Below, piece after piece: positions 31,627-36,602 of a stretch of 64,000 bases of DNA (position 1 is the first letter of the stretch; each line of letters opens with the position of its first letter). The DNA comes from Marinosulfonomonas sp. (GTDB lineage Bacteria > Pseudomonadota > Alphaproteobacteria > Rhodobacterales > Rhodobacteraceae): contig JALSRG010000081.1 in assembly GCA_026984915.1 (NCBI GenBank), forward strand, positions 1-64,000. Direction: 5' to 3'. A program made the position numbers and the translations under genes. The notes beneath the pieces were generated by a model. It did not search any database and was not told the DNA's origin. It was given only the letters and a program-made list of their open reading frames with translations.

Positions 31627-31728
31627 TGCAAAAACAGCAGGCTGTGATATAATGTCAGGGTTGGCGGTCGTGCCTGCCGTGCTTATCTGAGGTAAAGCGG
31701 ATCAACGCCGTTGATTAAGGGAATGGCC

Positions 31729-33198
31729 ATGCGATTTTTGGGACGCAGCCTGATGGGTCTGATTCTGCTGTCTCTGACAGTGGGTCTATTGGCTTGGGCT
31801 GGTGCCACACTGGTCTCTGCGGTTGAAGCGCGTCGCAGCAAGACTACACAGGAAAGACCCCATCGCGAGCGGGTCTTTTCCGTGAATGTGGTTAAGGTAA
31901 CCGCAAGTGATATTGCCCCGGTTCTGACCAAATACGGAGAGTTGCGCAGCTTGCGCACACTGGATTTGCGCGCACCGGAATCGGGGCGCATCATACGCCT
32001 TGCCGCCGAATTCGCAGAAGGCGGGCGCGTGCAGGAAGGGCAGTTCCTGGCGCAGATAGATCCTGCAGATGCGTTGTCGGTGCTCGAACAGGCCAAGGCT
32101 GATTTGCAAGAAGCGCAAAATGAGGTGCAGGATGCCGCAGCGGCCCTGAAGCTGGCCACCAGGGATCTTGAACTGGCCAAGGCACAGGCGGCATTACGCA
32201 AACGAACCCTGTCGCGGCAGAAAGACTTGCAAAAACGGGGTGTGGGAACAGATGCAACCGTTGAAGCGGCAGAGCTTGCCGATGCGGCGGCTGCTCAGGT
32301 CGTGCTGTCGCGGCAACAGGCAATCCAGAAGGCGCAAGCTCGCGTAAAACAGGCCAGCATACGTGTGAAGCGCCTTCAGATTTCTCTGAAGGACGCGCAA
32401 CGACGTTTGTCGGATACACGGATCGTTACGCCTTTCCCGGGTACGCTTGATCAGGTTTCAGTCGTGGCAGGAGGATTGGTGGCAAAGAACGAACGACTGG
32501 CACAACTCATCGACCCGTCAGAACTCGAAGTGGCTTTTCGGGTGTCCACTTCCGAGTACGCGCGCCTGCTGACCGATGATGGGGGCGTGGTGCGTGCACC
32601 TGTGGAAGTCGTATTGGATGTTCTGGGCCTTGATTTAACGGCGCATGGTGTCCTGTCCCGCGAAAGTGGGGCCGTCGGCGATGGCCTGACCGGTCGCCAG
32701 TTGTTTGCGCAACTTGACGACGCACGTGGCTTTCGTCCCGGTGATTTTGTGGAAGTTCGCCTGAAGGAGCCGACGTTAAAGCAGGTAACCCTTTTGCCGG
32801 CAACGGCCTTGAATGCAAAACAGGCGGTCCTTGTGTTGGGAGATGACGATCGGCTGGAAGAGGTGCCTGTGAAACTGCTGCGGCGGCAGGGTAATGACGT
32901 GATCGTTCGCGCTGCGGAATTGGTTGGGCGGGAAGTGGTTGCCAAGCGGTCGCCGTTGCTGGGGGCCGGGATCAAGGTTCGGCCCCTGCGGGCGGATTCT
33001 GCTGCCAGGTCACATGATGATCCGACAGACACGGCAACGGTTGTGCTGGAGCCGGAGCGGCGCGCACGTCTGGTTTCGTTCATAAAGAACAATTCCGACT
33101 TGCCTGAGGATGCCCGGAAACGGATGTTGACCCAATTGGAGAAAGAGGCAGTCCCAGTCCGGGTGGTTACCCGTATCGAAGCCCGGATGGGGGGCTGA
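31729..33198 (+). CDS. RND efflux periplasmic adaptor subunit (MFP/HlyD family)
   Basis: Membrane fusion protein linking an RND pump to an outer-membrane channel. 489 aa from the ATG at 31729, which has a well-spaced AAGGGA; earlier in-frame TTG (31711) and ATG (31723) are alternatives. One N-terminal helix (about 7-27), then a lipoyl-like half (LRAPESGRIIRLAAEFAEGGRVQEGQ), a long alpha hairpin (about 105-220), the second lipoyl half and a beta-barrel. A helical C-terminal tail of about 60 residues (RARLVSFIKNNSDLPEDARK) is unusual. Two bases before the RND gene. Confidence 0.9.
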   Translation: MRFLGRSLMGLILLSLTVGLLAWAGATLVSAVEARRSKTTQERPHRERVFSVNVVKVTASDIAPVLTKYGELRSLRTLDLRAPESGRIIRLAAEFAEGGRVQEGQFLAQIDPADALSVLEQAKADLQEAQNEVQDAAAALKLATRDLELAKAQAALRKRTLSRQKDLQKRGVGTDATVEAAELADAAAAQVVLSRQQAIQKAQARVKQASIRVKRLQISLKDAQRRLSDTRIVTPFPGTLDQVSVVAGGLVAKNERLAQLIDPSELEVAFRVSTSEYARLLTDDGGVVRAPVEVVLDVLGLDLTAHGVLSRESGAVGDGLTGRQLFAQLDDARGFRPGDFVEVRLKEPTLKQVTLLPATALNAKQAVLVLGDDDRLEEVPVKLLRRQGNDVIVRAAELVGREVVAKRSPLLGAGIKVRPLRADSAARSHDDPTDTATVVLEPERRARLVSFIKNNSDLPEDARKRMLTQLEKEAVPVRVVTRIEARMGG

Positions 33199-33200
33199 AG

Positions 33201-36200
33201 ATGGTACGGCAGCTTCCCCCGGCGGCCCACGGGTTTCTATCCTATTTCACACGGCACCGCACAGCGGCAAATCTGTTGCTTGTGGTCATGCTGGCGCTGG
33301 GGCTTGCTGTTTTACCCCAACTGCGCACGCAGTTTTTTCCGGATATTGTTATTGATAATGTTTCGGTGCGGGTGCTCTGGAAAGGTGCCGGCGCCGAAGA
33401 TGTCGACAAGGCGATTGTTCAGGTTTTGGAACCTGCTCTGTTGTCTGTTGAAGGTGTCGAAGGGTCATCATCGACCTCGGTCGAGGGGCGCGCCTTTATC
33501 AAACTGGATTTCCTGCCCAACTGGGACATGGCAAGGGCGGCCGAGGATGTGCAGGCGGCCATTGACGCGGTGAGCAATCTTCCAGAGGACGCCGAAGAGC
33601 CGACTGTACGCCGCGGTGCCTGGCGTGACAGGGTGACGGATGTTGTCATAACCGGGCCGGTTTCGGTGGAGCAGATCGGGCGATTTGCTGACGAGTTTAC
33701 CACCAGACTGTTTGCCGCCGGAGTGACAAGAACCACTATTCGGGGGGTGGCATCGCCGGAAATCGTGATCGAAGTTCCTTCCGAAAACCTGATCCGCAAT
33801 GGTGTGACCATGCAGGAAATCGCATCCGCCGTTGCCGAGGAAGCATCAGCCGACCCGGCAGGCGATGTAAACGGTGCCAACGCGCGTGTGCGCACAGGGA
33901 TTGCCAAGGTAAGCGCGCGTGATATTGCCCGTATCGTTCTGCGCTCGAACCCGGACGGGTCACGTTTGACGGTGGGAGATGTGGCGGATGTCTACAAGTC
34001 CGGCACCGACAGGGAAATTGCTTATTTCGTCGGCAGTCAGCCGGCAGTTTCCGTTCGGGTGGATCGTTCCGACAAAGGCGACGCGATCGAGATTCAGAAA
34101 ACAGTGGAAAAAGTGGCTGCAGATTTGATGCTGACTCTGCCGCCGGCTGTGAAGATCGACCTTATCCGAACGCGGGCCGAGGCCATTTCCGGGCGCCTCA
34201 ATATGCTGCTGGATAACGGTCTGATGGGGCTGGGAATGGTGTTGGCCCTGCTCTTTCTGTTTCTGAACACGCGTACGGCCATCTGGGTTGCCGCAGGCAT
34301 ACCTGTTTCTGTCCTGACCGCTCTGGCGCTGATGTATGCTGCGGGAATAACCATCAACATGATCTCGCTGTTTGCGCTTATTATCACGTTGGGCATGGTG
34401 GTTGATGATGCCATTGTCGTCGGAGAACACGCGGATTTTCGGGCGCGCCGCCTTGGCGAAGACCCGACAATAGCGGCCGAAAATGCAGCGCGGCGCATGG
34501 CGGCCCCGGTTTTTTCAGCGACTCTGACCACGGTGATTGCCTTTTTTACGCTGGTTGCTGTCGGCGGGCAGATGGGAAGCCTGATTGCCGATATTCCCTT
34601 TACCGTTATTGCCGTTTTGACGGCGTCCCTGATGGAGTGTTTTCTGATCTTGCCAAATCACATGGCCCATGCACTGGCCCATTCGAACCGGGATCACTGG
34701 TATGACTGGCCCAGCCGTACTTTCAACCGTGGGTTTTTCTGGTTTCGCCAGCATGTATTTCGCCGTTTGATGGTGGCCGTTGTCTGGGCACGTTATCCGG
34801 TTTTGGCCGGTGTGATTGTTCTGCTGGCGTCGCAAGTGGCGCTTGTTGTGCGTGGAGACGTCCAATGGCGTTTTTTTAACGCGCCCGAGCGTGGTTCGGT
34901 GACAGGAAATTTTGCCATGATCGAAGGCGCTACGCGGGCAGATGCGATTGAAATGATGCATGAAATGCAACGCGCGACCGAGGCGTTGGGGAAGAAATAT
35001 GAGAAACGATACGGTCGCAACCCGTTGGACTATGTTCTGGCTGAAATCGGCGGAAACACCGGGCACGGTCTGGCTGGTGTCGAAAACAAGGATACCGATT
35101 TGCTGGGCTCCATCGCCATAGAACTTATCGACCCGGATCTGCGGCCATATTCGTCATTCAAGTTTGTCGCCGATCTTCAGGAAACCGTACGCAAGCTTCC
35201 GTTAGCCGAGACAGTCAGTTTTCGGGGATGGCGTTCTGGTCCGGGCGGAGATTCTCTGGCCGTAGAGTTCTACGGAGCCGACGCAAGAACACTCAAAGCC
35301 GCTGCAGAGGCGTTAAAGACGGCGATGGTGCAGTTCCCCGAAGTGACAGGCGTGCAGGACAGTCTGGCCTATGACAAATCGGAACTGGTGCTGGAACTTA
35401 CACCTCAGGGAAAGGCATTGGGGTTTACGATTGACGGGCTGGGCCGGGCCTTGCGCAACAGATTGAACGGTATCGAAGCCGCCAGCTATCCGGAGGGGCC
35501 GCGCTCGGCAACGATCATGGTGCAGTTGCCCAAGGACGAATTGACAGCGGATTTTCTGCAAAACACCCAAATGCGTACTAAAAAGGGTCAGTATGTTTCC
35601 CTGTCTGATATTGTAACGGTTAGCGAATCCACCGGGTTTTCAACAGTTCGGCGTGAAAATGGCGTGCGGCTTGTTTCGGTTACAGGCGATATATCCGAGG
35701 ACGACGCCGAGCGCGCAACAGAAATCATGGAGAGCCTGCGCAAGGATATCCTGCCGCGCATTGAAAGCGATTACAGGGTAGAAGGCAAACTGTTTGGTCT
35801 GGCAGAGCAGGAGCGCGAATTTCTTTCGGACGCGATGCTGGGTTTTATGCTTGGCCTGATCGGAATATATCTGACCCTGGCGTGGATATTTGCAAGTTGG
35901 ACAAGGCCAATGGTGGTTATGGCCATAATCCCCTTTGGGCTGGTCGGCACCATTTTCGGGCATTGGCTACATGATGTTCCACTGTCGATGTTCACGGTGG
36001 TCGGACTGCTTGGAATGACCGGGATTATCATAAATGACGCGATCGTTCTCGTGACAACAATTGATGAATATGCACGCGAGCGCGGGCTGATTCCGGCCAT
36101 TATAGAGGGAACATCCGATCGTCTTCGGGCAGTGTTGCTGACCACGCTGACAACGGTGATAGGTCTGGCACCCTTGCTGTTTGAAAGCTCGTCGCAAGCC

Positions 36201-36602
36201 CAGTTTCTGAAACCCACGGTGATAACGCTTGTGTATGGTCTGGGGTTTGGCATGGGGCTTGTTTTGCTTGTTGTGCCCGCGCTTTTGGGGATGCAGATGG
36301 ATATCCGGCGCCAGATGCAGGCGCTGCGCCGGGCCATGCGCTGGCGGCATGGCGCGGGTTTGGTCAACTGGACAGTATCCGTGGTTGCGCTGGGATCGGT
36401 CGGGATTTTCGCAATGACATTCGGTCAGGTGTTTCTGACCGGCTCACTCCCGGCAGCACTGCTAAAGATCTTGCCGTTTTTACAATCTGTCCCGTCGATG
36501 CCTGCCGCCTTTGGCGCATTTGTCATTGGCGTGATGATTCTGGTATTCATCGCCTATATGATCGGGGCATTAATGATCAATCGTCAGAGAAGACGGGCCT
36601 GA
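33201..36602 (+). CDS. RND efflux transporter, inner-membrane pump, with extra C-terminal helices
   Basis: Proton-driven RND transporter of the AcrB/HAE1 superfamily, 1133 aa, about 90 longer than usual. Features: TM1 after NLLLVVMLALGLAV, large periplasmic loops, TM4 with the proton-relay GMVVDDAIVV, and a second repeat with MTGIIINDAIVLV. Beyond the normal TM12 (ending near 1031) there is a basic linker and two further hydrophobic helices (about 1053-1078, 1101-1125). Substrate unknown. Pairs with the upstream adaptor; no outer-membrane channel gene nearby. Confidence 0.93.
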   Translation: MVRQLPPAAHGFLSYFTRHRTAANLLLVVMLALGLAVLPQLRTQFFPDIVIDNVSVRVLWKGAGAEDVDKAIVQVLEPALLSVEGVEGSSSTSVEGRAFIKLDFLPNWDMARAAEDVQAAIDAVSNLPEDAEEPTVRRGAWRDRVTDVVITGPVSVEQIGRFADEFTTRLFAAGVTRTTIRGVASPEIVIEVPSENLIRNGVTMQEIASAVAEEASADPAGDVNGANARVRTGIAKVSARDIARIVLRSNPDGSRLTVGDVADVYKSGTDREIAYFVGSQPAVSVRVDRSDKGDAIEIQKTVEKVAADLMLTLPPAVKIDLIRTRAEAISGRLNMLLDNGLMGLGMVLALLFLFLNTRTAIWVAAGIPVSVLTALALMYAAGITINMISLFALIITLGMVVDDAIVVGEHADFRARRLGEDPTIAAENAARRMAAPVFSATLTTVIAFFTLVAVGGQMGSLIADIPFTVIAVLTASLMECFLILPNHMAHALAHSNRDHWYDWPSRTFNRGFFWFRQHVFRRLMVAVVWARYPVLAGVIVLLASQVALVVRGDVQWRFFNAPERGSVTGNFAMIEGATRADAIEMMHEMQRATEALGKKYEKRYGRNPLDYVLAEIGGNTGHGLAGVENKDTDLLGSIAIELIDPDLRPYSSFKFVADLQETVRKLPLAETVSFRGWRSGPGGDSLAVEFYGADARTLKAAAEALKTAMVQFPEVTGVQDSLAYDKSELVLELTPQGKALGFTIDGLGRALRNRLNGIEAASYPEGPRSATIMVQLPKDELTADFLQNTQMRTKKGQYVSLSDIVTVSESTGFSTVRRENGVRLVSVTGDISEDDAERATEIMESLRKDILPRIESDYRVEGKLFGLAEQEREFLSDAMLGFMLGLIGIYLTLAWIFASWTRPMVVMAIIPFGLVGTIFGHWLHDVPLSMFTVVGLLGMTGIIINDAIVLVTTIDEYARERGLIPAIIEGTSDRLRAVLLTTLTTVIGLAPLLFESSSQAQFLKPTVITLVYGLGFGMGLVLLVVPALLGMQMDIRRQMQALRRAMRWRHGAGLVNWTVSVVALGSVGIFAMTFGQVFLTGSLPAALLKILPFLQSVPSMPAAFGAFVIGVMILVFIAYMIGALMINRQRRRA

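Follow-up and report, generated by a model that had tools for sequence, protein, structure and literature searches.

Two predicted C-terminal membrane helices added to an RND permease of Marinosulfonomonas sp., and their relation to the helical tail of its adaptor

Published accounts give RND exporters twelve membrane helices (e.g., PMC2891726; PMC6975555). The stretch of Marinosulfonomonas sp. DNA analyzed here (64,000 nucleotides, contig 81 of a 3.16-Mb assembly; hereafter the window) encodes an RND pump that runs on after the twelfth membrane helix (TM12), next to an adaptor that also ends in an additional segment. A previous sequence-only reading of the locus noted about 100 residues after TM12 in the pump, with a basic linker and two hydrophobic segments (1053-1078 and 1101-1125), and a helical C-terminal tail in the adaptor; it suggested that the two extensions may be a matched pair and that topology prediction and their presence in the same genomes could be used as checks. 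The locus raises the question of what the extra helices of the pump are, whether they are kept for a reason, and whether the adaptor tail is their partner.

The adaptor-pump operon and the permease core

The features of the operon, in window coordinates, are the following:

31729..33198, + strand: periplasmic adaptor (membrane-fusion protein), 489 aa, with an N-terminal membrane anchor (TIGR01730, AF2, Foldseek)
33037..33195, + strand: adaptor C-terminal tail, 53 residues, three helices (alignment, AF2)
about 33187-33201, + strand: G-run in the last codons of the adaptor (ATG GGG GGC TGA), approximately 6 bases 5' of the pump ATG (sequence)
33201..36602, + strand: RND (HAE1-type) permease, 1133 aa, 14 predicted membrane helices (ORF, PF00873, hydropathy, AF2)
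33237..36284, + strand: canonical 12-TM RND core, residues 13-1028 (Pfam span, best 50 solved chains)
36285..36353, + strand: basic linker, predicted cytoplasmic, residues 1029-1051 (column conservation, AF2)
36354..36440, + strand: predicted TM13, residues 1052-1080 (AF2, hydropathy, column conservation)
36441..36494, + strand: predicted periplasmic loop between TM13 and TM14, residues 1081-1098 (length of 3-33 residues over 59 extensions)
36495..36596, + strand: predicted TM14, residues 1099-1132, with a basic C-terminus (AF2, column conservation)

The two genes adjoin on the plus strand with a gap of two bases. The adaptor ORF opens with TTG at 31711, and its true start is probably the ATG at 31729, since all 24 aligned adaptors start there with Met, most of them with M-R-F-L. 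Its product exceeded the curated cut-off of TIGR01730 (124.6 bits against 94.9). The operon is flanked on the 5' side by uracil-DNA glycosylase-like and MoaB-like genes and on the 3' side by DsbD_N-like and AlgH-like genes, an order largely retained at the named loci of the family and not seen around distant relatives. The named loci nearest to that of the window belong to Rhodobacteraceae and Paracoccaceae (e.g., Sulfitobacter, Marivita, and Ruegeria). No outer-membrane channel gene was recognized in the ten scanned neighbors of the operon. The G-run at the end of the adaptor gene, found in the same arrangement before the pump start in most orthologues, is probably the ribosome-binding site of the pump gene, as judged from the sequence, and the near-invariant Met-Gly-Gly end of the adaptors would follow from that function. 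In this regard, Gly-Gly persists in several adaptors without the tail helices (L008, L105, L108, L135, and L139), an indication that these final positions may be retained as a ribosome-binding site.

The pump matched PF00873 (ACR_tran) over residues 13-1028 with an E-value of 7.3e-142 and 474.6 bits (cut-off 28). The RND permease topology of 1+6+5 helices with two large periplasmic loops (PMC2891726) was found in its core, the hydrophobic segments being located at 21-39, 336-550 (six segments), and 879-1025 (five segments). None of the named drug-pump subfamilies or equivalogs of NCBIfam was reached at its cut-off, the best being NF033617 with 404.8 bits against 1250. TM4 residues D402 and D403 of the pump are invariant. 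From its family, the pump would be a proton-driven, probably trimeric exporter working through the adaptor and an outer-membrane channel.

The TM10 lysine of AcrB takes part in the proton relay. In a phmmer alignment, the pump has Asn945 followed by Asp946 (window 36033-36038) where AcrB and AcrD carry this lysine, and we take Asn945 to occupy its position (AcrB numbering). Asn945 was invariant in all 47 aligned rows, including relatives of 29-37% identity, and Asp946 was nearly so. As far as the alignment indicates, the whole pump subfamily may have a different arrangement of the proton relay.

The C-terminal hairpin and its conservation

With residue 1028 as the last of the Pfam core, 105 residues remain, in keeping with the extension first noticed. 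The Kyte-Doolittle scan gave 14 hydrophobic segments in the pump, the final two at 1061-1079 and 1108-1126. The AF2 model of the pump (mf27e5f08ac65, a monomer built from 47 sequences; mean pLDDT 86.4, pTM 0.76) showed TM12 and the basic linker as a single helix (998-1046), followed by helices at 1052-1080 and 1099-1132. The pLDDT of the extension was about 76-89 through residue 1120 and 64-77 at the extreme end, with about 85 in the hairpin. Hydropathy and model therefore agree on the basic linker and the two segments of the sequence-only reading. None of the best 50 solved chains aligned beyond residues 11-1043 of the model (Z 47.5-51.5, with 954-1002 residues aligned), so that the hairpin was barely probed by that comparison; normal RND pumps finish after TM12, and the pump of the window has two further helices. 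An annotation or frameshift artefact in this pump was ruled out, as most family orthologues have the extension in one frame.

It must be noted that shuffling the residues of the extension produced two hydrophobic segments in 43% of the trials. Hydropathy of a single sequence is therefore weak evidence, and composition explains part of it. Among the 59 orthologous extensions, two segments were present in 56 at a threshold of at least 1.6 and in all of them at 1.4 or higher. The positive-inside rule fitted 56 of the 59, with mean net charges of +5.3 in the linker, −0.4 in the loop and +3.0 in the C-terminus, a pattern which locates the linker and the C-terminus in the cytoplasm and the TM13-TM14 loop in the periplasm. 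The charge pattern, together with conservation across sequences that share a mean pairwise identity of only 24%, carries the case for a membrane hairpin. Searches for relatives gave only weak Pfam matches to the extension (27 members scanned; e.g., Lamp2_2nd, below cut-off), the region being too short and hydrophobic for such a search to be decisive. These matches were judged to be due to chance, and no sequence likeness of the hairpin to AcrZ or to another membrane-protein family was found. Comparison with the viral structure library gave nothing at an E-value of 0.001 or better.

Among the orthologues in the tree, 58 of 69 carried the hairpin, and the extension is conserved. Of the 56 more distantly related pumps whose 3' ends are complete, only one had a hairpin-type extension, unlike that of the family, and the other three RND pumps observed in the genome of the window had none, which rules out a general RND feature for this sample and for this genome. 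The exception, a Pseudomonadales pump of 33% identity (L158, 4191-4733), has a 3' extension of approximately 180 aa with three hydrophobic segments, possibly an independent addition of C-terminal helices. Other departures were seen within individual loci: the pump frame of L115 (G442) continues for several hundred mostly hydrophilic residues beyond TM14, and L040 (G018), L041 (G023), and L150 have an in-frame insertion in mid-protein, near pump residue 495.

The sequence of the hairpin has diverged far more than that of the core, with a mean pairwise identity of 24% vs. 62% and a pN/pS of 0.83 vs. 0.27 (pS being saturated near 0.6). Over the 59 extended pumps, the conserved columns were the linker arginines R1043 (81%) and R1044 (93%), F1070 (64%), T1073 (73%), and G1075 (76%) in TM13, where A1071 is also conserved, G1081 (83%) beside it, and A1103 (71%), F1107 (78%), and G1110 (66%) in TM14. 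With the exception of the arginines, these positions lie where TM13 and TM14 reach the periplasmic side. With hydropathy and charge pattern retained in 56 of the 59 despite this divergence, the constraint is on a membrane hairpin and not on a precise interface, apart from this periplasmic-end patch, and it is chiefly as a membrane hairpin that the extension is kept across the family (Rhodobacteraceae and Paracoccaceae in the named loci).

Such divergence agrees with a hairpin that drift established in the ancestor of the family and that has been carried along ever since, with no role beyond compatibility with the membrane. The low identity, the pN/pS, and the variable loop are what a passenger of this kind would show, and one lineage (L112) has lost the hairpin yet retains the pump. 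However, the conserved columns listed above, from R1044 down to A1103, persist in 59 diverged sequences, and the fewest changes that account for the 58 of 69 rows with a hairpin are one gain and one loss, even though truncation is mutationally trivial. The hairpin rarely changes although a single nonsense mutation removes it and hairpin-less orthologues exist, which argues for selection to retain it. On balance, it seems likelier to be useful than useless, and we consider the passenger explanation unlikely, although it deserves serious attention.

The adaptor tail and its history relative to the hairpin

The helical tail of the adaptor proved to be real. In the AF2 model of the 489-residue adaptor it forms three helices (442-454, 460-471, and 477-487) with a block pLDDT of about 79-90, and 27 adaptor tails aligned with a mean column identity of 62%. 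Mean pairwise identity was 46% in the tail and 49% in the adaptor body, while the linker reached 20%. By profile search, the tail was detected in 5 of the 385 genomes of the class sample, all five from the family of the window (0 of 380 others), and in 234 of the 295 genomes of the family sample. A match in G575 (E 3.7e-5) was dismissed, since it sits in an ORF that appears flavodoxin-like by eye. No credible Pfam family was found for the tail when members were scanned singly (best E 0.0076), nor a credible sequence match in the PDB (best E 0.0043, a transcriptional regulator covering 25 positions), and a resemblance to SHOCT-like helical hairpins had no counterpart among the matches of the Pfam scan. 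The tail is duplicated in tandem in G004 (L019, 4892-5248, minus strand) and in G530 (L207), and therefore behaves as a module. Second, diverged copies of the operon were observed in L038 (G010) and L211 (G624), with pumps 52-55% identical and both adaptors bearing a divergent tail; the second-copy pump of L038 has the hairpin, and the L211 locus has only the first part of the pump.

At first sight, tail and hairpin go together. In a table compiled by eye from the two profile-match lists, 230 of the 295 family genomes matched both profiles; in 10 there was a match to the pump profile alone, in 4 to the tail alone, and in 51 to neither. The pump profile spans TM12, and its nine weakest matches (E above 1e-34) comprised eight pumps without hairpin and one cut by a contig end (G616); moreover, in two of the ten pump-profile-only genomes (G447 and G564) the adaptor lies off the contig. 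A search of 14 tail-less family genomes with the full-length pump gave no orthologue in 11, identity being at most 32% among the best matches listed. Inspection of genes showed neither feature in G011, G441, G468, and G578, a tail without hairpin in G486, G491, G659, and G666 (degenerate in the last), and a hairpin without tail in G554, G648, and G653. Among named organisms, a hairpin without tail occurs in two Paracoccus and one Tabrizicola. In the genus of the window itself, G002 has lost the tail and kept the hairpin, and G003, present as two fragments, is consistent with this condition.

Among 69 orthologous operons, hairpin and tail were both present in 50 and both absent in 6, while 8 had the hairpin alone and 5 the tail alone, raw counts that point to an association. 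This count excludes loci truncated at a contig end or with a broken frame (e.g., L047, L090, L109, L110, L115, L119, L123, L136, and L148). For L040, L041, and L150, the adaptor was not picked correctly by the automatic procedure, and both features were scored manually as present; a tail was counted as present at an HMM E-value under 1e-4 on the adaptor, a threshold by which the degenerate tail of L112 counts as present. L042 was excluded from the tree. Along the careful tree (72 rows), the hairpin needed two changes of state and the tail 10. Independent pairs differing in the tail numbered 8 (starred branches, 72 rows) or 9 (quick tree, 74 rows), and in none of them did the two features change jointly; occasionally the hairpin moved in the direction opposite to the tail. 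Given so few pairs, the sign test is unable to reach 0.05, and the pair test represents an absence of support rather than a proof of independence. In addition, the basal hairpin-less rows, among which some forks are open, include tail bearers (L143, L117, and L120), and in those rows a partnership with the hairpin does not account for the tail.

These data bear on the idea of a matched pair, in which the adaptor mini-domain would dock on TM13-TM14, at their loop or their periplasmic ends, and provide cognate recognition or a latch. It has points in its favor: the joint profile matches and the operon table, the location of the conserved patch at the periplasmic ends, the recognition of the transporter by the C-terminal part of the adaptor described for known systems (PMC4446572), and one lineage (L112, G666) that combines a hairpin-less pump with a degenerate tail. 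Co-occurrence in the same genomes is thus found as a count, but it has no counterpart in joint change on the tree, and at the genome level it is expected for two neighboring genes in one inherited operon. Against the pair stand the approximately 10 tail changes vs. 2 of the hairpin, the eight hairpin-only operons, which include the genus of the window (L008), Paracoccus, and Tabrizicola, the five tail-only operons, and the variable length (3 to 33 residues) of the loop on which a tail in the periplasm would most obviously dock. An obligate pair is rejected by these separate gains and losses, and we regard the matched pair, whether for recognition or as a latch, as quite improbable. Hairpin and tail have separate histories, and the adaptor tail would not be the partner of the hairpin.

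Possible role of the hairpin and comparison with known systems

The permease core and the adaptor body are those of an ordinary RND system, and what is new is both C-terminal extensions. Neither a 14-helix RND permease nor this adaptor tail was found described in the literature consulted, which comprised open papers and is not proof of absence. The explanation to which we give about even credence, by analogy with known accessory helices, is that of an ordinary exporter with two separate accretions, the hairpin being a built-in accessory of the AcrZ type. In this account, a tripartite HAE1-type RND exporter of the usual kind, driven by protons and belonging to the Rhodobacteraceae lineage, would have gained two separate additions. 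The permease would have acquired its C-terminal transmembrane hairpin once and lost it nearly never. The basic cytoplasmic helix after TM12 would lead into TM13, running from cytoplasm to periplasm, and then through the short loop into TM14, which would return to the cytoplasm. The hairpin may pack outside the membrane domain of the protomer, as a covalent counterpart of AcrZ or YajC, and tune lipid contacts or substrate entry, while the periplasmic ends (F-A-x-T-x-G in TM13 and A-x3-F-x2-G in TM14) may pack mutually or against the core. Both the packing site and the modulatory role are drawn from that analogy. The adaptor would carry its three-helix mini-domain on a variable linker after the membrane-proximal domain; this tail would be older than the hairpin or independent of it, dispensable and repeatedly lost, and probably a separate module for binding or spacing. 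It must be considered that the high pN/pS of the hairpin relative to the core speaks against this explanation, since much of the hairpin could be a weakly constrained passenger.

The persistence of the hairpin needs a cause, and this could also be the docking of a fourth partner in the inner membrane or cytoplasm, for instance through the basic helix, in place of a lipid or conformational modulation. The double-arginine helix is indeed the best conserved stretch after TM12. Basic stretches after TM12 are nevertheless present in pumps without hairpin as well, and are hence older than it, and no conserved membrane gene of a new type was recognized among the conserved neighbors of the operon described above. 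We therefore find such a docking element quite improbable.

A bolder form of the accessory explanation, which we put forward tentatively and consider improbable as a whole, would be a 14-helix RND class in which an accessory with the role of AcrZ, once loose, has been built into the pump of the whole family. It would act mainly where TM13 and TM14 end in the outer leaflet, close to the point at which membrane-borne substrates enter, and the adaptor would have separately evolved a detachable, tandem-duplicable three-helix module.

What helices on the membrane domain do for the pump has been left open for AcrZ in the account of PMC7267776. A family-wide 14-helix pump is a natural fusion for asking this question, and the operons that occur in nature with the two extensions, with one of them, or with none are ready-made controls for it. 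The locus also illustrates that the co-occurrence of neighboring features across genomes can mislead until it is corrected by the tree.

With regard to known systems, the pump shares with AcrB, MexB, and AdeB the 12-TM core and the two periplasmic loops (Z about 50), as well as the TM4 aspartates (D402 and D403), and differs from them in the two added C-terminal helices and in an identity of only about 20% to solved pumps. AcrZ is a transmembrane helix on the concave membrane surface of AcrB, which it modulates together with lipid (PMC7267776), and YajC and AcrZ are described as binding the transporter within the inner membrane and as seemingly non-essential, perhaps modulatory (PMC4446572). 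By analogy, the hairpin would resemble them as helix added to the membrane domain of a pump, but it is covalent, consists of two helices, and has no detectable sequence relationship to them. The adaptor has the hairpin, barrel, and membrane-proximal parts of AcrA, MexA, and MacA (Foldseek E-values down to 6.9e-26), and differs from them in the extra 53-residue three-helix mini-domain and in its N-terminal anchor helix. It shares an extra C-terminal domain with SilB-type adaptors (PMC4446572), but that of SilB, as presented there, is a CusF-like metal chaperone shown beside beta domains, while the tail of the window adaptor is helical. Finally, the 14-TM major-facilitator exporters EmrB and QacA are likewise a 14-helix variant of a 12-helix family (PMC8277102; PMC10425836); their fold is unrelated to that of the RND pump, and the likeness is one of analogy only.
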